Assembly: GCF_018141425.1 (NCBI RefSeq)
Contig: NZ_CP058561.1
Span: 3,658,001 to 3,722,000 of the forward strand
Source of the DNA: Vallitalea guaymasensis
Lineage (GTDB): Bacteria; Bacillota; Clostridia; Lachnospirales; Vallitaleaceae
Length of the DNA stretch: 64,000 bases
Direction: 5' to 3'
The notes beneath the pieces were generated by a model. The model searched no databases. It saw nothing but the letters and a program-made list of their open reading frames with translations, and was not told the DNA's origin. Both the position numbers and the translations under genes were made by a program. Positions 51,303 to 63,936 of this stretch are shown here, piece by piece; within the stretch, counting starts at the first letter, position 1, and the number at the start of each line of letters is the position of its first letter.

Positions 51303-52628
51303 ATGAAAAAATTTCTAATAGTATTATCAATTGTAACTCTTTTGGTTTCATCATTAGCAGGATGTGGCAATACTGATAATAAGAAAGAAGAACAAAGCAA
51401 TTCAGATAATGAATCAAATGGGCAAGTTGAAACTAATGATAACCAGGACGAAGAAATTACACTATCTTTTTGGTATAAAGATGTAGGAGTAAAAGAAGAA
51501 ATCTATAAAGAGGCAGTTGCACGTTTTGAAAATAAATACCCTAATGTAACAGTTAAAACTTTTCAAGCAAGAAGTTCTGCTTATAAGCAGAAGCTACCAA
51601 TAGCTTTATCTGGAAATGATGCACCTGATGTTTTCTTTACTTGGGGCGGAGGATGGCTTAAAAGATTTGCCGATGAAGGTCACGTGTTGGAAATTACTGA
51701 TAAACTTGACACAAGTCGTTTCAAAGATTTAGCCATGGTAAATTGTGTTAATGATGACAAAGTTTTTGGAGCACCATTAGGTATTGATATTGGAGTTGTA
51801 TTCTATAACAAAGAGATTTTTGAAAAACATAATCTACAAGTACCTAAAACTTATGAAGAGTTGAAAAGTGTTATGAGTACTTTGAGAGAAAACGAAGTTA
51901 TTCCTTTTGTACTTGCTAATCAGCCTAAGTGGCCAGGTTCTTTCTGGTACATGTATCTAGTAGATCGTTTAGGTGGAGAAGAAGCTTTTGATAAAGCTTT
52001 CAAACGTGATGGAGGTAGTTTCAATAGCCAACCATTTGTTGAAGCAGGTGAATATATTCAGGACTTAGTTGATGCAAAAGCTTTTAATGATGGATATAAT
52101 GGATTACCATATGATGCAGGTACAGCTAGACAATTACTCTATACTGATAGAGCGGCTATGATGTTGCTTTCTAATACATTCATTAATTTAGTTAGAAAAG
52201 AAGCACCAGATTATGAAGAAAAAGTAGGAATGTTTCCATTCCCAACTATGCCAAATGGAAAAGGTGACGAGAATAACCTAGTAGGTATTGCTGCACCAGT
52301 TTGGTCAATATCTTCAGGTTGTGAGCATCCTGATTTAGCATTAGAACTAATAAACGAATTAACAAGTGTAGAAACTGCTACAGAGTATTCTAATAGAACA
52401 GGATCACAGACAGCTATCAAAGACATAAAAACAGAAGACCCTGTTGTTCAACAATTAATGGATATGTTGAATAATGCTAATAATCTACAAATGGTATATG
52501 ACCAGACATTAGTACCAGAATTGGCACAAAAACATTTGGAAACAACACAAGAGGTATTTGGTTTTATGAAGACTCCTCAAGAAGCAGCAGATGAAGTTGA
52601 GGAATTAGCAAAGAAATTATTAGATTAG
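51303..52628 (+). CDS. Sugar ABC transporter substrate-binding lipoprotein
   Basis: This 441-residue lipoprotein has a signal peptide ending in lipobox LAGC (Cys about residue 21), an acidic linker (NKKEEQSNSDNESNGQ) and a family 1 extracellular solute-binding fold (LSFWYKDVGVKEEIYKEAV; ALSGNDAPDVFFTWGGGW). It captures an oligosaccharide or glycoside and delivers it to the two permeases downstream. AGGAGGG precedes the ATG. It is the first gene behind the double operator. No ATPase gene is in the cluster, as usual where a shared MsmK-type ATPase serves several importers. Confidence 0.93.
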   Translation: MKKFLIVLSIVTLLVSSLAGCGNTDNKKEEQSNSDNESNGQVETNDNQDEEITLSFWYKDVGVKEEIYKEAVARFENKYPNVTVKTFQARSSAYKQKLPIALSGNDAPDVFFTWGGGWLKRFADEGHVLEITDKLDTSRFKDLAMVNCVNDDKVFGAPLGIDIGVVFYNKEIFEKHNLQVPKTYEELKSVMSTLRENEVIPFVLANQPKWPGSFWYMYLVDRLGGEEAFDKAFKRDGGSFNSQPFVEAGEYIQDLVDAKAFNDGYNGLPYDAGTARQLLYTDRAAMMLLSNTFINLVRKEAPDYEEKVGMFPFPTMPNGKGDENNLVGIAAPVWSISSGCEHPDLALELINELTSVETATEYSNRTGSQTAIKDIKTEDPVVQQLMDMLNNANNLQMVYDQTLVPELAQKHLETTQEVFGFMKTPQEAADEVEELAKKLLD

Positions 52629-52703
52629 AAATTAAAATTTGAAAGTGTATATAATAAAATGGTCGGGGTCAATCCTCGACCAAAAAGTTTGAAAGGAGAC
52701 TAT

Positions 52704-53588
52704 ATGAAAAAATTCAAGAATAGCAAAATAACTCTTTTTATTGTTTTTTTGTTACCAACATGTTTAGTTTTTTCTACGTTTATTTTATATCCCATATTTT
52801 CTACATTCATTAATAGTTTCTTTGACTGGTCAGGATTGAGTGCTAATAAAACATTTATTGGATTAACTAATTATATAAATCTATTTCAAGATTCTTCATT
52901 TAAAGCAACTCTTGTGAATAACTTATATGTAATTATAACTTCAGTACTATTTCAAATTCCTTTAGGATTAGTACTAGCATTGGTGATTGTTAAAAATAAT
53001 GTAAGAAACAAATTATTGAGTATCATTTATTTCTTGCCATATTTATTGTCAACAATGGCTGTAGGTTTAGTATGGACATTGTTCTATGACCCATATTTCG
53101 GAGTAGTGAACAATGCATTAAAATGGATTGGAGTCGAGAATTGGCAGATTACTTGGCTTGCTGACCCTAAGACAGCACTTATTGCAGTACTTATCGTTGT
53201 CGTATGGTTTTATGCACCTTTCTATATGGTCATTTTAAGAGCTGCATTAGTAGGGGTACCAAAATCTCTTTATGAAGCGGCAGATATTGATGGTGCTTCC
53301 AAGACTCAGCAATTCTTTAAGATAACATTACCTACAATAAAGCCTACATTGGTTACTTCATCCATTCTATCAATTGTAGGGTCATTAAAATCCTTTGATA
53401 TTTTCTATATCATGACAAATGGTGGACCTGGTACGTCAACAGAACTTGTTGGTACTTATATGTATAAACAAGCATTTGTAAATTATAAAATGGGTTATGC
53501 AAGTTCAATAGCATTTGTAATGTTTTTAATTACTTTGTTGGTAAGTGTATTTGTTAAAACATTTAATAGAAGAAGGGGGCAAGCGTAG
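52704..53588 (+). CDS. Sugar ABC transporter permease (MalF-like)
   Basis: This 294-residue inner-membrane permease has six helices. The EAA loop that contacts the ATPase is LYEAADIDGASKTQQFFKITLP near residue 195. An in-frame ATG at 52659 is upstream, but AAAGGAG is correctly spaced for the ATG at 52704. Its stop lies 2 bp before the start of the second permease. Confidence 0.93.
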   Translation: MKKFKNSKITLFIVFLLPTCLVFSTFILYPIFSTFINSFFDWSGLSANKTFIGLTNYINLFQDSSFKATLVNNLYVIITSVLFQIPLGLVLALVIVKNNVRNKLLSIIYFLPYLLSTMAVGLVWTLFYDPYFGVVNNALKWIGVENWQITWLADPKTALIAVLIVVVWFYAPFYMVILRAALVGVPKSLYEAADIDGASKTQQFFKITLPTIKPTLVTSSILSIVGSLKSFDIFYIMTNGGPGTSTELVGTYMYKQAFVNYKMGYASSIAFVMFLITLLVSVFVKTFNRRRGQA

Positions 53589-53590
53589 GT

Positions 53591-54409
53591 ATGAAAACTA
53601 TTAATAAATTATTAAATAATAGTATAGCATTCTTGCTAGCAATAGTTATGGGCTATCCTCTTTTGTATGTAGTTAGTACTTCATTGAAGCCACTGAATGA
53701 TTATTTTACAGAACCTGTAAAACTTTTTAGTGCACTTAGTTTAGAAAATTATAAGTACGTTATTGATATGGGGTTTCATGTTTTCTTTAAAAACAGCTTA
53801 TTGATTACTTTTTTCAGTGTAATAGTCACTGTATTATTAGCAACTATGGCTAGCTATGCATTAGTCAAGTTGGACTTTAAGTTCAATAAGATTTTGAGCC
53901 TTTTGTTTATAGCGGGTATGATGATACCAGTTCATGCAACATTAATCCCTATTTTTAACCTAGAAAAGAATATTTATATATATAATAGATTAATTGGAGT
54001 GGCTTTACCTTTGATTGCTTTTTCTTTACCTATTTCAATATTTATTGTTAGTCAATTCATGAGAGATATACCTAATGAATTAGTAGAAGCAGCCAAGATG
54101 GATGGAGCCAGTGAATATCAAACATTCTGGGGAATCTTTTTTCCACTTTTGAAACCTGCAATATCTACTATCGTAATTTATACTGGAGTTAAGATCTGGA
54201 ATGAATTCATCTTTTCATTAGTATTATTGAATGATGTAGAGAAATACACCATTCCTTTAGGATTGCAACAGTTCTATGGAGAATTCTCTGTTAATGTACC
54301 AGCTTTGTTAGCAGCAATTTTTACTGCTACTATTCCAGTTATTTCAATTTTCCTTATTTTACAAGATAAATTTGTTAAGAGTCTGACTGGGGGAGCAGTG
54401 AAAGGTTAG
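53591..54409 (+). CDS. Sugar ABC transporter permease (MalG-like)
   Basis: This 272-residue protein has six membrane helices and the EAA loop LVEAAKMDGASEYQTFWGIFF near residues 157-177. It is the second half of the permease heterodimer, immediately after the first permease with GGGGG-rich sequence serving as ribosome site. A 29-bp gap leads to the GH1 gene. Confidence 0.93.
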   Translation: MKTINKLLNNSIAFLLAIVMGYPLLYVVSTSLKPLNDYFTEPVKLFSALSLENYKYVIDMGFHVFFKNSLLITFFSVIVTVLLATMASYALVKLDFKFNKILSLLFIAGMMIPVHATLIPIFNLEKNIYIYNRLIGVALPLIAFSLPISIFIVSQFMRDIPNELVEAAKMDGASEYQTFWGIFFPLLKPAISTIVIYTGVKIWNEFIFSLVLLNDVEKYTIPLGLQQFYGEFSVNVPALLAAIFTATIPVISIFLILQDKFVKSLTGGAVKG

Positions 54410-54438
54410 AAACATTGAAAAAGTAGAGGTGATATAAA

Positions 54439-55779
54439 ATGATAAGTGAAATGACAGATGATTTTAAGTGGGGAATATCAACGTCTGCTTACCAAATAGA
54501 AGGAGGATACCAAGAAGATGGTAAAGGTCAGTCTATTTGGGACGTTTTTACAGAAAACAAAGATAACATTGTTGATGGAAGTGACGGAAAAGTCGCGTGT
54601 AATCATTATGAATTATACAAGGATGATATTGACCTGATTGCAAATCTAGGTATCAAATATTATAGATTCAGTATTGCGTGGACAAGAATATTCCCTAACA
54701 ATTCCTATGAGATAAATGAAAAGGGTATAGAGTTCTATATTGATTTAATTAAGTATATGATTCAAAAAGGAATTGAACCTTTGGTATGTCTACATCATTG
54801 GGATTTACCTTATTATCTGTATGAGCAAGGTGGATGGTTGAATAGAGAATGTGTAGAGGCATTTGAAAAATATGCTGAAACAGTATTTATTCGTTTGGGT
54901 AAATATGTTAAACACTGGACTACATTCAATCAACCTTATTCTATTGCATATGGTGGTTATGTTACTGGGAAAAGGGCACCTGGAAAACAAGATATACCAT
55001 CTGCATTTAAAGTAATACATAATGTTTTGCTTGCACATGGTAAAGCTGTAGGTAAGTTCAGAGAATTGAATATTGAGGGTAAAATAGGTATAATATTAAA
55101 TTTGATGCCTGTACATTGTCTAAGTGAAGAAGATGAAGATGTTAGACAATTGGAAGATGAATTCAGAAATAAATGGTTCTTGGATGCAGTATTCATGGGT
55201 ACTTATCCAAAAATGTCCAGGACCTTTCTTGAAAAAGAATATAATATGGATTTCAATGAATTGATGCAAGCAGAGGATATGAAGGTTATATCTGAGAGAT
55301 TGGATTTTATCGGTGTAAATTATTATACTAGAAAGATTGTTAGATATAATGAAGAGTGTTTATTTAATGTTGAATATATAGATGGAAGTAATGATTCAAC
55401 AGATGATTTTCGTGAGATATACCCTAATGGATTAAAAGAAGCTCTAGGATTCATAAGAAAATACGATCCCCAATTGGATATATATATAACTGAAAATGGT
55501 GCTGATTATAGAGGCGATAAAGTTGAAGATATATTGAATGATGAAAAAAGAATAGAATTCTTGGACTGTCATTTTAATACGATCAAGGAATTAATTCATG
55601 ATGGATTTCCTATTAAAGGGTACTATCTGTGGACACTATTTGATAATTTTGAATGGGAAAATGGATATGTTGGAAAATATGGTATAGTCTATGTGAATAG
55701 AGATACTCAAGAGAGAATTGTGAAAAATAGTGGAAAATGGTATACTGGATATATAAATGAAAATAAAAGGTTTTGGTGA
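54439..55779 (+). CDS. GH1 glycosidase with Gln at the acid/base position
   Basis: This 446-residue cytoplasmic (beta/alpha)8 glycosidase of family GH1 should hydrolyse the imported glycoside. Family motifs are FKWGISTSAYQIEGG at the N-terminus, LHHWDLPYYLY near residue 119, the nucleophile Glu352 in YITENGADY, and the C-terminal LFDNFEWENGY. At the acid/base position the usual TFNEP is TTFNQP, so Glu is replaced by Gln165 (codon CAA at 54931). Plant myrosinases share that substitution. The enzyme could act on thioglycosides or on substrates with good leaving groups. It overlaps no neighbour and ends 3 bp before lacI. Confidence 0.93.
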   Translation: MISEMTDDFKWGISTSAYQIEGGYQEDGKGQSIWDVFTENKDNIVDGSDGKVACNHYELYKDDIDLIANLGIKYYRFSIAWTRIFPNNSYEINEKGIEFYIDLIKYMIQKGIEPLVCLHHWDLPYYLYEQGGWLNRECVEAFEKYAETVFIRLGKYVKHWTTFNQPYSIAYGGYVTGKRAPGKQDIPSAFKVIHNVLLAHGKAVGKFRELNIEGKIGIILNLMPVHCLSEEDEDVRQLEDEFRNKWFLDAVFMGTYPKMSRTFLEKEYNMDFNELMQAEDMKVISERLDFIGVNYYTRKIVRYNEECLFNVEYIDGSNDSTDDFREIYPNGLKEALGFIRKYDPQLDIYITENGADYRGDKVEDILNDEKRIEFLDCHFNTIKELIHDGFPIKGYYLWTLFDNFEWENGYVGKYGIVYVNRDTQERIVKNSGKWYTGYINENKRFW

Positions 55780-55782
55780 TTT

Positions 55783-56775
55783 ATGGAAAAGAAAAATGTC
55801 AAAGAAATTGCAAAACTCGCTGGTGTATCCACAGCAACAATATCAAGAGTAATAAACAATAACCCAAATGTTAAGGAGTCTACTAGACAACATGTCCTAG
55901 AGATTGTTAACAAATATGGCTTTAAACCAGATAGATTAGCTAAGAATCTGAGAACTAAAAAGAGCTATACTTTACTAGTATTGATTCCAACTGTGGAGAA
56001 TCCATATTTTGCTGAGATTATACGTGGAATTAATGAAAAGGTATACAATACTAAGTACGAGGTTATTATTGGAACTGTGGAGCATAAACGTAATTCAATG
56101 GAGATTTTCTTGGATTTGCTTAAGACCAATCAAATAGATGGTGCCATATTCGTTTCATCAAGTATTGATAAATCACAATTGATAAACATAAAAGATAAGA
56201 AAAATATCGTGCTTTGTAATGAATATATTGAAGGAATGGATATTTCCTATGTCTGCATAAATAATCTATTAGCTTCATATGAAGCTACAAAGAAACTTAT
56301 AGAATCAGGATGTAAGAATCTATGTTATCTTGCAGGACGTAAGAAATCAATTTCCAGTGAAAAGAGGAAATTGGGTTTTCAGAAGTGCTTAGATGAATAT
56401 GATATTACAAGTTCAGCCGAACATGTGATATATGGTCCCAACTCTATAGAATCAGGGTATGAATCTATGAAGAAGATCCATGACAGCAATATAAAATTTG
56501 ATGGTATACTTGTTAATTCAGATTTAAAGGCTGCAGGGGTAATACAATATCTAAAACAGAAAGATTTTAAAATTGGAGAAGACGTAAAATTAATTTGTTT
56601 TGATGGTACTTTTGTTTCAGAGATTATAACACCTAAGATTACAACTATTAATCAACCAGGTTACATTATCGGACAGAAAAGTTTGGAACTGTTAGTGAAT
56701 CAACTTGAAGATTCAGAGTGTGATTTTCAATCAATAATCGTGGAACATGAAATTAAAAAGGGCGAAACTTTATAA
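55783..56775 (+). CDS. LacI-family transcriptional repressor
   Basis: This 330-residue regulator has an N-terminal HTH (VKEIAKLAGVSTATISRVIN, residues 5-24), a hinge helix region near residue 50 and a periplasmic-binding-protein-like sugar-sensing domain (ILVLIPTVENPYFAEIIRG-like sequence beginning at about residue 63). It lies 3 bp after the glycosidase as last gene of the uptake operon. The double palindrome at the operon head is the expected binding site, giving negative feedback on its own synthesis. Confidence 0.93.
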   Translation: MEKKNVKEIAKLAGVSTATISRVINNNPNVKESTRQHVLEIVNKYGFKPDRLAKNLRTKKSYTLLVLIPTVENPYFAEIIRGINEKVYNTKYEVIIGTVEHKRNSMEIFLDLLKTNQIDGAIFVSSSIDKSQLINIKDKKNIVLCNEYIEGMDISYVCINNLLASYEATKKLIESGCKNLCYLAGRKKSISSEKRKLGFQKCLDEYDITSSAEHVIYGPNSIESGYESMKKIHDSNIKFDGILVNSDLKAAGVIQYLKQKDFKIGEDVKLICFDGTFVSEIITPKITTINQPGYIIGQKSLELLVNQLEDSECDFQSIIVEHEIKKGETL

Positions 56776-59015: not shown

Positions 59016-59801
59016 CTATTTTGGGAAACTATAATTTGAACCAAAATTATTATCCCAATAAGTTACACCATTAACAGTATAGCTTATTGCAAACTCACAA
59101 TCATTATCCCACTGATAGTTGTTTCCACCAGTATAAAATGACCATAATTCTGTATTATTATCGTAAGAACGAGTATAGCTAGCATCAACTTCACTATAAG
59201 TTTTCCAATTATCTAGAGTGTATCGTACTTTTACGTTTTTGTCATAGCCTAGATTTTTTAAGTAAATGGAACCACTTAAGAAATTATCATTACGGTTACA
59301 TTCATTTAATAAAACAACACTTTTTGATAAAGTGCAAGGTGCATTATAGATCATTGTAGTTTCTTGAAGTAGATAATTATCTCCATTGTTATTATCCCAA
59401 TATGTATTACCATTAACCTCATATTTTAGAGCAAATCTACAATTATGGTAGGTATGATGTTGAGGGGCATAAATTTTATGAGGTGTTGAAAAGCTCCATA
59501 CTTCAGAGCCGTCTTTTAATGTTTTGAGATAAGATGCAGATTGGTCTAACCAGTTGGAACCGTCATAAGTATAATGTACTGTAATATTTTTATCAGCACT
59601 TAAGTTTTTGACATTGATATATCCAGTTGCATAATAATCTAATTGGCTGCCACATTGACCAACAGTTGTTGTTACCAATTTTGCTGAATACAGTTGTATA
59701 TTAGGAGTTGTCTGTGCTGAGATACTTAATCCACTGACATTGAGCATTAATACAAAACAAATTACAAAAGTTACTAAATTTCTAAAACATTTCTTTTTCA
59801 T
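59016..59801 (-). CDS. Secreted protein with two CBM21-like domains, paralogue 1
   Basis: This 261-residue exported protein has a signal peptide (MKKKCFRN then a hydrophobic stretch, cleavage near SAQ) followed by two ~105-residue modules. Module 1 ends EVNGNTYWDNNNGDNY and module 2 ends TVNGVTYWDNNFGSNY. Upstream of each lies VHYTYDGSNWLDQ- or VRYTLDNWKTYSEVDASY-like sequence. This order of KNL..K.V.VRYT.D.W..Y.DV.A.Y, W.F and YWDNN.G.NY is that of CBM21, known in glycogen-targeting subunits and some amylases. There is no catalytic domain or wall anchor. It is the distal gene of a pair, 38 bp after the next. Confidence 0.85.
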   Translation of the reverse strand: MKKKCFRNLVTFVICFVLMLNVSGLSISAQTTPNIQLYSAKLVTTTVGQCGSQLDYYATGYINVKNLSADKNITVHYTYDGSNWLDQSASYLKTLKDGSEVWSFSTPHKIYAPQHHTYHNCRFALKYEVNGNTYWDNNNGDNYLLQETTMIYNAPCTLSKSVVLLNECNRNDNFLSGSIYLKNLGYDKNVKVRYTLDNWKTYSEVDASYTRSYDNNTELWSFYTGGNNYQWDNDCEFAISYTVNGVTYWDNNFGSNYSFPK

Positions 59802-59839
59802 TAGAATTCCTCCTTGAGTTTATAGATTAACAGTTATTT

Positions 59840-60595
59840 TTATTCATAGAATCCTGTAAGGCTGTAGTTGTCACCAAAATTGTTATCCCAATAAGTTTGA
59901 CCATTAACAGTATAGCTTATAGCATATTCTCCTTCTTCATAGTAATAACATGGTATGAAGAATTCCCATGATTCTATATTGTTGCCAACATCTTTTCTGT
60001 AAGTGGCATCCACAGATTTTTGTGTTTTCCAACCGTCTTTTGTATAGAAGACTTTTACATCTTTAGCATAATCCAGATCTTTCAAGAACATGAATCCTTG
60101 TACTCCATAACGATAATTATGTCTACCAGTATCTAACATAACTATGCTTTTTGATAATGCATAAGGAGTATTGCTATCTGAGTAACTATATTCAACATAA
60201 TAGTTTTCTCCATTGTTATTGTCCCAATATGTATTACCATCAACTTCATATTTTATTGCAAATGTACAATTATTAGATTTATCCTTTGGTATATTTATAT
60301 CAAAAGACCAAACTTCATCTTCTGGTGATAGATTCTTTAAATATTCAGCTTTTTGCTCAAGCCAAGTAGTGCCATCATATGTATAATGTAAAGTAACGTT
60401 TTTATCATAGTTCAAGTTTTTAACATGTATATAACCTTTTGCAGTATAATCACTGTTAAATCCTTTTTGCATTATCTTAGCAGAATACAGCTCTACATTA
60501 GGCGTCTGTGCTAAAATACTAAAGCTATTTACACTAAGGGTCAAAATAAAACAAATCATTAAAGTTACTGAGTTTCTAAAATACTTTCTTTTCAT
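59840..60595 (-). CDS. Secreted protein with two CBM21-like domains, paralogue 2
   Basis: The 251-residue paralogue has a signal peptide (MKRKYFRNSVTLMICFIL), module 1 ending EVDGNTYWDNNNGENY and module 2 ending TVNGQTYWDNNFGDNY. Its first module lacks the aromatic-rich TPxxxxxxHxYNC loop of the other copies (here shortened to NIPKDKSNNCTF), so ligand preference may differ. It is preceded by AGGAGGAATTTAA-type ribosome site and by a full consensus promoter at 60627-60655 on the minus strand, and reads through into paralogue 1. Confidence 0.85.
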   Translation of the reverse strand: MKRKYFRNSVTLMICFILTLSVNSFSILAQTPNVELYSAKIMQKGFNSDYTAKGYIHVKNLNYDKNVTLHYTYDGTTWLEQKAEYLKNLSPEDEVWSFDINIPKDKSNNCTFAIKYEVDGNTYWDNNNGENYYVEYSYSDSNTPYALSKSIVMLDTGRHNYRYGVQGFMFLKDLDYAKDVKVFYTKDGWKTQKSVDATYRKDVGNNIESWEFFIPCYYYEEGEYAISYTVNGQTYWDNNFGDNYSLTGFYE

Positions 60596-60626
60596 TTAAA
60601 TTCCTCCTTTATTTTTTATAAAATAC

Positions 60627-60655
60627 ATTATATTACGATAATTTATATATGTCAA
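60627..60655 (-). promoter_or_regulatory. Consensus promoter for CBM21-like paralogues 2 and 1
   Basis: On the minus strand TTGACA (60655-60650) and TATAAT (60632-60627) have a 17-base spacer. Confidence 0.85.
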
Positions 60656-60907
60656 ACAATAAACTGAATATTTATTTTGTTTAAAATATTGTTAGAATAT
60701 AACGAAATATTAATTTATATATAAGATATATTGTATACAATATCAAATAATAGTATAAGATAAGTAGTTTTTGGAAATAAAATTGTAAGATATTATAAAT
60801 AACCAATAAAAATAAATTAAATTATTAGTTAATTTAAAAATATAAGTGAATAAAAATTCATAAGAAGGTATAATAAATTGTTTTGAAAGGTGATTAAGGA
60901 AATAACT
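60656..60907. other. Intergenic region between CBM21-like genes
   Basis: This is part of the 492-bp gap between paralogues 2 and 3. It is extremely AT-rich with no gene; the hairpin repeat at 60908-61012 occupies the rest. Confidence 0.5.
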
Positions 60908-61012
60908 AAGGGACAGCCTCCTAATATATTTCACTGTGATACTTACTAGAGTCGATATTTTGGTTTATCGGTAAACTAGACAGTGAAAAAATATATTAGG
61001 AGACTGCCCCTT
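60908..61012. repeat. MITE- or REP-like imperfect palindrome
   Basis: Arms of ~30-33 bases (60908-60937 with 60980-61012, a few mismatches and a small bulge) run AAGGGACAGCCTCC inward to CACTGT, and back from ACAGTG to GGAGACTGCCCCTT. The inner 42 bases contain a small CGATA/ATCG hairpin. GGGACAG-type palindromes are typical of REP-like or miniature transposable repeats in Firmicutes. No transposase is nearby and no target duplication could be proven. Confidence 0.65.
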
Positions 61013-61087
61013 AATGCATATTTTAGATATTAAGATTTATTAGCATAAACGAACTTATTACTTGTGAGTACTAGCTAATGATAATCA

Positions 61088-61894
61088 TTAGGGAAGATTA
61101 GGGTCCTGTGTAGGTGAGAAACTGTAATTATCACCAAAATTATTATCCCAATAAGTTACACCATTTACTGTATAACTCACAGCATATTCTCCACCACAAC
61201 TCCAAGGAATAGTACTTCCGTCATTGATTGTATTGAATAACCATAATTCTACATTATTACCTAGATTACAATTATATGAAGCATCAACATCATGATAAGT
61301 TTGCCAATTGTCTGTAGTATAACGCACTTTTACTACCTTATCATAAGCCAGGTTTTTCATAAAAATAGAACCATAGATAGAATTATAAGAACGACCTGTT
61401 TTATCTAACATAACAACACTCTTGGATAGTGCATATGGTGAGTTAAAACTTGTGCTGCTGCATTGAAGAAAATAATCATTTCCGTTATTATTATCCCAAT
61501 AGGTGTTACCATTAACTTCGTATTTTATGGCAAATCTACAATTGTATGTGTATTGATGAGCTGGTGTGTATGATTCATGTGGTGTAGTGAAAGACCATAC
61601 CTCTGATCCATCTGATAATGTCTTATAGTAGGATGCAGATTGATCATACCAATTATAGCCATCATATGTATAGTGTATTGTAACATTTTTGTTGATATTC
61701 AAGTTTTTAACATATATGTATCCACTTGCGTAGTAACCTGTCATGCGACCAGTATCAGCATAGGTCGTTTCCATTTTTGCAGAATAAAGTTCTACATTTG
61801 GAGTTTGAGCTAGAATACTAGAACCGTTGATATTGAGAATTAACATAAAACAAAAAATAAAAGCTACTAGATTTCTAAATAATTTTTTCTTCAT
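61088..61894 (-). CDS. Secreted protein with two CBM21-like domains, paralogue 3
   Basis: A 268-residue paralogue with a signal peptide (MKKKLFRNLVAFIFCFML, cleavage near LAQT). Module 1 ends EVNGNTYWDNNNGNDY; module 2 has VRYTTDNWQTYHDVDASY and ends TVNGVTYWDNNFGDNY. The short C-terminal tail is SFSPTQDPNLP. The region VKNLNINKNVTIHYTYDGYN matches the beta-strands before the first binding face. AGGAGGATTTATTA on the minus strand is the ribosome site. No strong promoter was read just upstream, so it may be transcribed from the next gene. Confidence 0.85.
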   Translation of the reverse strand: MKKKLFRNLVAFIFCFMLILNINGSSILAQTPNVELYSAKMETTYADTGRMTGYYASGYIYVKNLNINKNVTIHYTYDGYNWYDQSASYYKTLSDGSEVWSFTTPHESYTPAHQYTYNCRFAIKYEVNGNTYWDNNNGNDYFLQCSSTSFNSPYALSKSVVMLDKTGRSYNSIYGSIFMKNLAYDKVVKVRYTTDNWQTYHDVDASYNCNLGNNVELWLFNTINDGSTIPWSCGGEYAVSYTVNGVTYWDNNFGDNYSFSPTQDPNLP

Positions 61895-62013
61895 TAATAA
61901 ATCCTCCTATTTTTTAAAAATATATAATTTCTCTTTCAGATTAATATATGTATCAACATAAGAAGTTATTAAATAATGTTAAAAATAATTATGAACAATA
62001 ATATTCCATCATA

Positions 62014-62832
62014 TTAGTTAGAAGAATCTGGTGATGGTGAAAAACTATAATTATCGCCAAAGTTATTATCCCAATAAGTTACACCATCAACAGTATAACC
62101 GATAGCATATTCTCCACTAGAATTAACAGGGAAAGGACTATTATCATGCATAGTATCAAATGACCATAATTCTATATCATTATCATATTTCCAGTTATAA
62201 TGAGCGTTAAGATCATGATAAGTCGCCCAATTATCTGTAGTATAACGTACTATAACTTTCTTGTCGTAAGCTAAATTTTTTAAGAAAATGAAGCCCCATA
62301 AAGAATGTGGAGTAGATATATCCTTGTCTAACATAACAACACTTTTGGATAATACAAAAGGAGCATCGTAAATCATAGTAGTATCTTGAAGAAAATAATT
62401 GTCTCCATTATTATTATCCCAGTATGTATTACCATCAACCTCATATTTTACAGCAAATTTACAATTATATTCAACTTGATGTGTTGGTGTATAAGATTGT
62501 TCAGGTGTTTTGAAAGTCCATACTTCAGATCCGTCCTCTAATGTTTTTTGATAAGAAGCAGGCTGATCCAACCAGTTGGTATCGTCATATGTATAGTGTA
62601 TTGTCACATTTTTGTTAGCGCCTAAATCCTTGATATAGATTTTACCAGTTGAATAATAACCTACCATGTTACCGATATTACCGTATGTTGGTAATATTTT
62701 TGCGGAATACAGTTGTACATTTGTTGTCTCAGCTAATGTTGTTTGAGCTGAAATACTAAAACAACTAATGTTAAGTGCTAAAACAAAACAAATCATAAAA
62801 GTTACTAAATTTCTAAAATACTTTCTTTTCAT
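62014..62832 (-). CDS. Secreted protein with two CBM21-like domains, paralogue 4
   Basis: A 272-residue paralogue. The ATG at 62832 is used because AAGGAGGAATTATT precedes it; a longer in-frame start lies at 62895 on the promoter itself and is not credible. Signal peptide MKRKYFRNLVTFMICFVLAL; module 1 ends EVDGNTYWDNNNGDNY; module 2 has VRYTTDNWATYHDLNAHY and ends TVDGVTYWDNNFGDNY, then a SPSPDSSN tail. It is closest to paralogue 3 in layout. Confidence 0.85.
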   Translation of the reverse strand: MKRKYFRNLVTFMICFVLALNISCFSISAQTTLAETTNVQLYSAKILPTYGNIGNMVGYYSTGKIYIKDLGANKNVTIHYTYDDTNWLDQPASYQKTLEDGSEVWTFKTPEQSYTPTHQVEYNCKFAVKYEVDGNTYWDNNNGDNYFLQDTTMIYDAPFVLSKSVVMLDKDISTPHSLWGFIFLKNLAYDKKVIVRYTTDNWATYHDLNAHYNWKYDNDIELWSFDTMHDNSPFPVNSSGEYAIGYTVDGVTYWDNNFGDNYSFSPSPDSSN

Positions 62833-62866
62833 AATAATTCCTCCTTTATATTTTTTTGTAAAATAT

Positions 62867-62895
62867 ATTATAATAGTATTATAAATCCATGTCAA
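62867..62895 (-). promoter_or_regulatory. Consensus promoter for CBM21-like paralogue 4
   Basis: On the minus strand TTGACA (62895-62890) and TATAAT (62872-62867) have a 17-base spacer. Confidence 0.85.
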
Positions 62896-62945
62896 ATAAT
62901 GTATAGAATATTATTTAATAATAAAATATTATAATATTAAAGAAA

Positions 62946-62993
62946 AGTAGTGAATAAATTATATGTCAATAACTTGATAATTTATTCACTACT
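62946..62993 (-). terminator. Intrinsic terminator of CBM21-like paralogue 5
   Basis: A perfect 17-bp stem (AGTAGTGAATAAATTAT with ATAATTTATTCACTACT) with a 14-base loop, followed on the minus strand by TTTTCTTT, about 100 bp after the paralogue 5 stop. Confidence 0.75.
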
Positions 62994-63089
62994 AGTATTC
63001 CTATACATATAAATCAATGAAATGAGTATACAATTCATTTGATTTTAATAAATAATAATGTTATACAATATAAAAATAGTACATTAGAT

Positions 63090-63875
63090 TTAATTGATAT
63101 TATATAATCTATAATTTAGTTCGAAATTATTGTCCCAATAGGTAACACCATTAACAGCGTAACCAATACAGAATTCAAAATCTCCTTCTACATCAATTAT
63201 AGTTGTCCAATTTTCAATGCCATTAGCATTTGTATTTTTATAAGAAGCTAAACTCTCTTTATAACTTTGCCAGTTATCATTAGAATATCGTACTTTTACG
63301 GTTTTATCATAGCCTAGATTCTTTAAACATATGTTTAATGAATGTTTATTTCCACTAAGACACCAAATATTATCTAATGTTAAAACACTTTTAGATAATA
63401 CGATAGGTGAATAATATGAATCTTTACCTCTTTCAATAAAATAATCATTCCCATTATTATTATCCCAATATGTATTACCGCCTACTTCATATTTTACAGC
63501 AAACTTGCAGTTGCATTTAGTATATCTGCAACCCATAAAACGTTGGTTAGGTGTTCTGTATCTCCAGACTTCTGAGCCATCGGATAAGGTTTTAACATAT
63601 ACTGCTGGTTGATCATACCAATCATTACCGTTATAAGTATAGTGTACTGAAACATTTTTACTTACCCCTAAATCCTTGATATAAATGATTCCAGTTGAAT
63701 AATAGACATTACCAATCATCATATCACCGCTAACGGAACCTGTCTCTAATTTTGCTGAGTACAACTGTACATTATCATTGGTCGTTTGAGCTGAAATACT
63801 AAGGCTTCCAACATTAAATGCCAAAATAAAACAAATCATACAAGTTAATAAGTTTCTAAAATACTTTCTTTTCAT
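63090..63875 (-). CDS. Secreted protein with two CBM21-like domains, paralogue 5
   Basis: A 261-residue paralogue and the most diverged of the five. The ATG at 63875 follows AGGAGGAATTAAT; the upstream in-frame start at 63920 lies in the promoter. Signal peptide MKRKYFRNLLTCMICFILAF; module 1 ends EVGGNTYWDNNNGNDY. Module 2 has VRYSNDNWQSYKESLASY and ends AVNGVTYWDNNFELNYRLY, so the last Gly of the WDNNxG motif is Glu. Extra cysteines (GCRYTKCNC) are present in the module 1 loop. Confidence 0.85.
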   Translation of the reverse strand: MKRKYFRNLLTCMICFILAFNVGSLSISAQTTNDNVQLYSAKLETGSVSGDMMIGNVYYSTGIIYIKDLGVSKNVSVHYTYNGNDWYDQPAVYVKTLSDGSEVWRYRTPNQRFMGCRYTKCNCKFAVKYEVGGNTYWDNNNGNDYFIERGKDSYYSPIVLSKSVLTLDNIWCLSGNKHSLNICLKNLGYDKTVKVRYSNDNWQSYKESLASYKNTNANGIENWTTIIDVEGDFEFCIGYAVNGVTYWDNNFELNYRLYNIN

Positions 63876-63908: not shown

Positions 63909-63936
63909 AGTATACGCCAATATTTTTAAATGTCAA
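63909..63936 (-). promoter_or_regulatory. Probable promoter for CBM21-like paralogue 5
   Basis: On the minus strand TTGACA (63936-63931) and TATACT (63914-63909) have a 16-base spacer. Confidence 0.7.

Follow-up and report, generated by a model that had tools for sequence, protein, structure and literature searches.

CBM21 carbohydrate-binding domains are known mainly from fungal amylases and from animal glycogen-targeting proteins. Non-catalytic, exported proteins that carry several starch modules are known as the Bacteroides SusE and SusF proteins and the Sas proteins of R. bromii, and these are either anchored at the cell surface or attached to an amylosome by docking.

The ligand contacts of two CBM21 domains have been published. 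Those of RoSBD are W47, Y83, Y94, N96, and N101 in site I and Y32 and F58 in site II (PMC3398936), and those of PTG are W193, W246, N248, and N253 in site I and F180 and Y203 in site II (PMC9582199). RoSBD alone disrupts and unwinds amylose helices, and the polyN clamp of the YxDNNN loop has been presented as a special feature of mucoralean domains (PMC3398936). Vallitalea guaymasensis grows on starch (PMC6163223), and CBM21 transcripts not assigned to an organism are increased in the colon of pigs fed raw potato starch (PMC8254964).

Five adjacent genes encode exported pairs of CBM21 modules

The window, which is the whole 64,000-nucleotide stretch of V. guaymasensis DNA analyzed here, contains five adjacent paralogs on the minus strand (59016-63875), each encoding a Sec signal peptide followed by two CBM21 modules. 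These genes and the promoter-like sites before three of them are listed below, with the gene lengths and coordinates counted from ATG starts.

63909-63936, minus strand: promoter-like site, TTGACA-16-TATACT (11/12), 33 bp before the gene 1 ATG
63090-63875, minus strand: gene 1, 261 aa from the ATG; signal peptide, module 1 at residues ~30-149, module 2 at ~150-259
62867-62895, minus strand: promoter-like site, TTGACA-17-TATAAT (perfect), 34 bp before the gene 2 ATG
62014-62832, minus strand: gene 2, 272 aa from the ATG; signal peptide, module 1 at residues ~30-150, module 2 at ~151-266
61088-61894, minus strand: gene 3, 268 aa; signal peptide, module 1 at residues ~30-145, module 2 at ~146-261; the copy used for the structural model
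60627-60655, minus strand: promoter-like site, TTGACA-17-TATAAT (perfect), 31 bp before the gene 4 ATG
59840-60595, minus strand: gene 4, 251 aa; signal peptide, module 1 at residues ~30-136, module 2 at ~137-248
59016-59801, minus strand: gene 5, 261 aa; signal peptide, module 1 at residues ~30-147, module 2 at ~148-261

For gene 2, the TTG at 62895 given in the list of open reading frames is not the likely start. Gene 5 starts 38 bp behind gene 4, and the two are probably co-transcribed. The five signal peptides have a Sec-type cleavage site at residue 29 (SISA or SILA followed by Q), leaving acidic mature proteins of 222-243 residues and 26-28 kDa with a pI of 4.5-5.7. Pairwise identity among the proteins is 46-64%, with gene 1 the most divergent of the copies, and dN/dS ratios of ~0.2-0.4, well below 1, indicate purifying selection.

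When the array proteins were scanned against Pfam, CBM_21 was matched twice in each (E values of 1e-26 to 2e-38). The PF03370 profile scored 94-131 bits per protein and 47-82 bits per single module, so that all ten modules exceed the cut-off of 28.9. The CBM53 profile matches the same stretches much more weakly, and nothing but CBM_21 and the related CBM53 was found above cut-off, with no catalytic, anchor, or dockerin domain. The proteins have short C-terminal tails; they lack the catalytic domain in the same chain that defines an auxiliary module of a glycoside hydrolase, as well as the lipobox, LPXTG, SLH, or dockerin of a cell-surface starch-binding protein. These results bear out the description in an earlier note on this DNA, made from the letters alone, of five adjacent minus-strand paralogs with signal peptides, each made of two CBM21 modules and free of enzyme, anchor, or other domains.

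Perfect sigma-A promoters lie 31-37 bp before the ATG of two array genes and of a further two-module gene at 0.956 Mb of the genome. Such perfect sites number 86 in the whole genome, and the probability that three would fall on this gene set by chance is ~1e-3. An AGGAGG precedes most of the genes, and strong expression of these genes would be expected. The strong promoters, the size and acidity of the mature products, and the dN/dS ratios all suggest functional proteins that are exported and well expressed.

Between genes 3 and 4 is a long, near-perfect hairpin (60900-61020, minus strand; -52.4 kcal/mol, z -9.8). A mobile-element origin of this 100-nt palindrome was considered and rejected, as it is present in a single copy in the genome and has no Rfam match. 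Upstream of the array, at 51303-56775, are genes for a sugar ABC transporter, a GH1 β-glucosidase, and a LacI regulator, with no indication that this cluster is connected to the CBM21 genes.

The modules are predicted to have a CBM21 fold

An AlphaFold model of the gene 3 protein, built on an alignment of 29 relatives, consists of a signal helix followed by two β-rich domains (pLDDT 84, pTM 0.76). In a Foldseek search with this model, the best nine PDB matches were all CBM21 domains, with PTG in complex with β-cyclodextrin first and PPP1R3B, RoSBD, and PPP1R3A among the others. The TM scores to the target were 0.50-0.77 for these nine, the PPP1R3-type matches had Foldseek E values of 1e-6, and the match to RoSBD had 34% identity. 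Mammalian glycogen-targeting CBM21 domains also ranked best in a profile search (E ~1e-21). The predicted structure contains the immunoglobulin-like β-sandwich of solved CBM21 domains. The earlier note had recognized CBM21 from motifs and proposed a profile search and structure prediction; both comparisons, together with the binding-site residues described below, agree with that identity.

The two modules retain different sets of ligand-site residues

The published ligand contacts of RoSBD (PMC3398936) and PTG (PMC9582199) were mapped onto 53 two-module proteins, the majority of them from Vallitalea and from gut or rumen Lachnospiraceae and Ruminococcus. Each of the two site-I Trp positions holds Trp in 104 of the 106 modules, the Asn of the WDNN loop (RoSBD N96 position) is nearly invariant, and RoSBD position 101 is Asn or Asp in most modules. 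The position of the site-I Y83 is mostly Ala in the family, and the PPP1R3 domains in the comparison have Ala or Cys there.

Most copies of module 2 retain the Arg, Trp, Tyr, Trp, Asn, and Asn of PTG site I and the Asn, Tyr/Phe, Lys, Tyr, and Glu/Asp of PTG site II, and both sets are near-complete in the array, where the site-II Tyr/Lys/Tyr/Glu is present in all five module 2s. In several Vallitalea module 2 copies outside the array, either the site-II Tyr or the Tyr of the clamp has been lost. In module 1, His replaces the Arg in 51 of 53 proteins, and the site-II position of Y32 is aromatic in only 9 of 53, whereas 51 of 53 have Tyr or Phe at that of F58. RoSBD position 98 is Asn in 45 of 53 module 1s, giving a DNNN loop as in RoSBD, and Phe in 45 of 53 module 2s.

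By these residues the two modules have specialized: module 2 retains those of both known glucan sites, whereas module 1 retains those of site I, has the NNN loop, and usually lacks the key site-II aromatic. The earlier note had reported a constant difference between YWDNNNG at the end of module 1 and YWDNNFG at the end of module 2. The first motif is present in all five array proteins, as is YWDNNF in module 2, but the sequence continues as YWDNNFEL rather than YWDNNFG in gene 1 (63090). The NNNG/NNFG contrast thus belongs to a set of several ligand-site differences that consistently separate the modules.

Distribution and history of the family

The genome (5.63 Mb, one contig) contains ten two-module CBM21 genes: five in the array, two at 1.148-1.149 Mb, where a one-module gene adjoins them, and singles at 0.956, 1.440, and 4.491 Mb; the earlier note had seen only the five of the array. 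The family occurs in five of six genus genomes but is much rarer in wider samples: it was present in 2 of 391 genomes drawn from the class and in 7 of 392 drawn from the order (V. guaymasensis included). The relatives that are named in their records come from Vallitalea MAGs, from Lachnospiraceae and Ruminococcus of the gut or rumen, and from other Clostridia.

All but one of the 53 proteins in the comparison set are 223-293 aa long with no further domain in the chain, and C-terminal tails are 2-11 residues in 51 of the 53. LPXTG occurs in none, and a lipobox in one alone (L034:23-844), from a contig labeled as a Deltaproteobacteria MAG, which is either an anchored version or a binning error. 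The protein with further domains (L082:8165-9979, genome G204) has a CBM20 and a PF00756 esterase with the two-module CBM21 pair, and its gene adjoins an NRPS-like gene.

In a tree of the 106 modules, a single branch splits first from second modules (99/94 support, 100% of bootstrap trees); the tree rests on few columns, and its finer forks are unsure. This clean split shows that the module duplication was single and older than these families. It extends the claim of the earlier note that the modules duplicated before the genes did, as the duplication also predates the split of the Vallitaleaceae, Lachnospiraceae, and Oscillospiraceae copies.

The array is flanked by an AAA-ATPase gene on one side and trmB-lysA on the other, and the same site has three copies in genome G001 and one in G005. 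Gene 4 has an ortholog in G001 (L075:8653), and gene 2 has orthologs in both G001 (L075:9498) and G005 (L029:10001). In all, three array copies have G001 orthologs in the same order, although for the most divergent copy the assignment is based on module 2 only. These same-order orthologs and the 46-64% identity among copies exclude a recent amplification. An operon with the downstream TrmB regulator and lysA was rejected because trmB has its own 11/12 promoter; since the number of CBM21 copies next to trmB-lysA is one, three, or five, depending on which of three genomes is considered, the pair is a marker of the site, not a functional partner. Tandem arrays occur elsewhere, with six copies in L046 and three each in L035, L037, and L049.

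Amylases and α-glucan genes

The V. guaymasensis genome encodes exported GH13 enzymes of 829 aa and 749 aa, the latter with a CBM20. One of these, an amylase with a Big_5 domain, has a separate exported one-module CBM53/CBM21 protein encoded 53 bp upstream of it (L028:7759-10684); this pair lies behind phage-tail-like genes and is conserved in G001 (L079). At five loci (L036, L039, L042, L077, and L080), a relative is encoded no more than ~6 kb from a GH13 gene or a gene for glycogen synthesis. Most family loci have no α-glucan gene nearby, and there is no conserved operon with amylases. The neighborhood survey that the earlier note had proposed thus recovered the family and its tandem arrays in relatives but no conserved amylase neighborhood, of which there are scattered cases only.

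Genomes G004 and G005, 94-99% complete drafts that contain two-module genes, were searched for GH13, GH14, and GH57, and no exported GH13 and no GH14 was found. As candidates for a hidden exported amylase, GH14 was absent from the genus genomes searched, and the weak partial GH57 matches, mostly in frames of ~840-1070 aa, were judged not real. Conversely, an exported GH13 but no CBM21 is present in G003, a draft in the same range of completeness. Within the genus, the family thus does not follow secreted amylases, and from G004 and G005 on the one hand and G003 on the other, we conclude that a private partner amylase is not required. A gene for a GlgB-like branching enzyme is present in all six genus genomes.

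Discussion

We favor, with moderate confidence, the explanation that these proteins are an exported, unanchored two-module CBM21 family that binds α-1,4-glucan through unlike modules, most likely making chains available outside the cell. Module 2 would grip α-glucan with a site I that forms a Trp and Asn tray and a site II that clamps with two Tyr, and module 1 with site I and the NNN loop, its key site-II aromatic being mostly missing. With these sites, one molecule could bind a single glucan chain or two, at some three points of contact. The most likely extracellular role is to coat, tether, or loosen starch, glycogen, or a similar polymer, so that its chains would become available to amylases, either the cell's own or a neighbor's. 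We infer the binding itself, its bivalency, and its ligand; the reading with the best support is extracellular binding of α-1,4-glucan, a well-supported inference, and bivalent binding would follow well from residue conservation. Growth of V. guaymasensis on starch and the pig-colon transcripts also favor this explanation. Against it stand the absence of a conserved operon with amylases, the mismatch between the family and exported GH13 enzymes in G003, G004, and G005, and the Ala that mostly occupies the Y83 position of site I. The least certain part is that the benefit lies in starch or glycogen use rather than in adhesion or a matrix.

Alternatively, the free modules could serve the cell's own secreted amylases, binding and unwinding amylose, as proposed for RoSBD, for a separate GH13. 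The appeal of this role is that RoSBD by itself unwinds amylose (PMC3398936), that starch supports the growth of V. guaymasensis, and that the CBM53/CBM21 protein precedes an exported amylase in a pair kept in G001; the genome's exported GH13 enzymes and the five loci near GH13 or glycogen synthesis genes are also in its favor. We nevertheless consider it somewhat unlikely, as no exported amylases were found in G004 and G005 in the searches for GH13, GH14, and GH57 and most loci have no α-glucan gene nearby. The modules could instead cross-link the cell's own or foreign α-glucan into a coat or biofilm, or keep cells near granules; the earlier note had likewise suggested cross-linking, a scavenging coat, or a matrix component. 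The pairing of modules that differ in their sites, the absence of an enzyme, the repeated tandem multiplication, the GlgB-like gene throughout the genus genomes, and the independence from exported amylases would all suit such a matrix or adhesion protein, but 52 of the 53 proteins have no cell anchor and there is no evidence that these species export α-glucan, and we hold this to be possible rather than probable.

A shift of the modules to another polysaccharide or to a protein, with only the CBM21 fold retained, is improbable. Although site II is mostly lost in module 1, and the site-II or clamp Tyr in several non-array Vallitalea module 2s, the site-I Trp, Trp, and Asn hardly vary in either module, and the module 2s of the array and of gut relatives keep site II. 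A broader proposal, in which families of bivalent CBM21 proteins with two functionally unlike modules form a released enzyme-free system that unwinds or cross-links extracellular starch or glycogen in an expansin-like or matrix role, tandem-multiplied in several clostridial lineages and independent of the producer's amylases, we regard as quite doubtful. Under the favored explanation of extracellular α-glucan binding, an ancient, conserved, exported enzyme-free pair in gut and marine Clostridia would represent a separate use of the CBM21 fold, and the family makes it testable whether binding modules alone can assist bacteria in using starch and glycogen or in holding on to them.

A literature search with little coverage of subscription journals returned no description of exported, anchorless, enzyme-free two-module CBM21 proteins. 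The module family is already known, and databases probably label such proteins as carbohydrate-binding, but the exported, anchorless, enzyme-free pair derived from one ancient duplication appears to be undescribed. The best sequence and fold matches are PPP1R3C/PTG, PPP1R3B, and PPP1R3A, and module 2 shares nearly all of their site I and site II residues. Those subunits, however, are intracellular and have one module and a PP1-binding segment, whereas the array proteins are exported, paired, and without that segment. Like SusE/SusF and the Sas proteins, the array proteins are exported, multi-module, and non-catalytic, but they have no anchor or dockerin, and the starch modules of those systems belong to other families. 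With RoSBD they share the fold and the site-I Trp, and module 1 has the YxDNNN loop; RoSBD, in contrast, is attached to a glucoamylase, whereas the array proteins have two modules and no enzyme and are missing the second polyN loop. The G204 protein has the same CBM21 pair, in the same module order on the tree, but there it is fused to an esterase and a CBM20.
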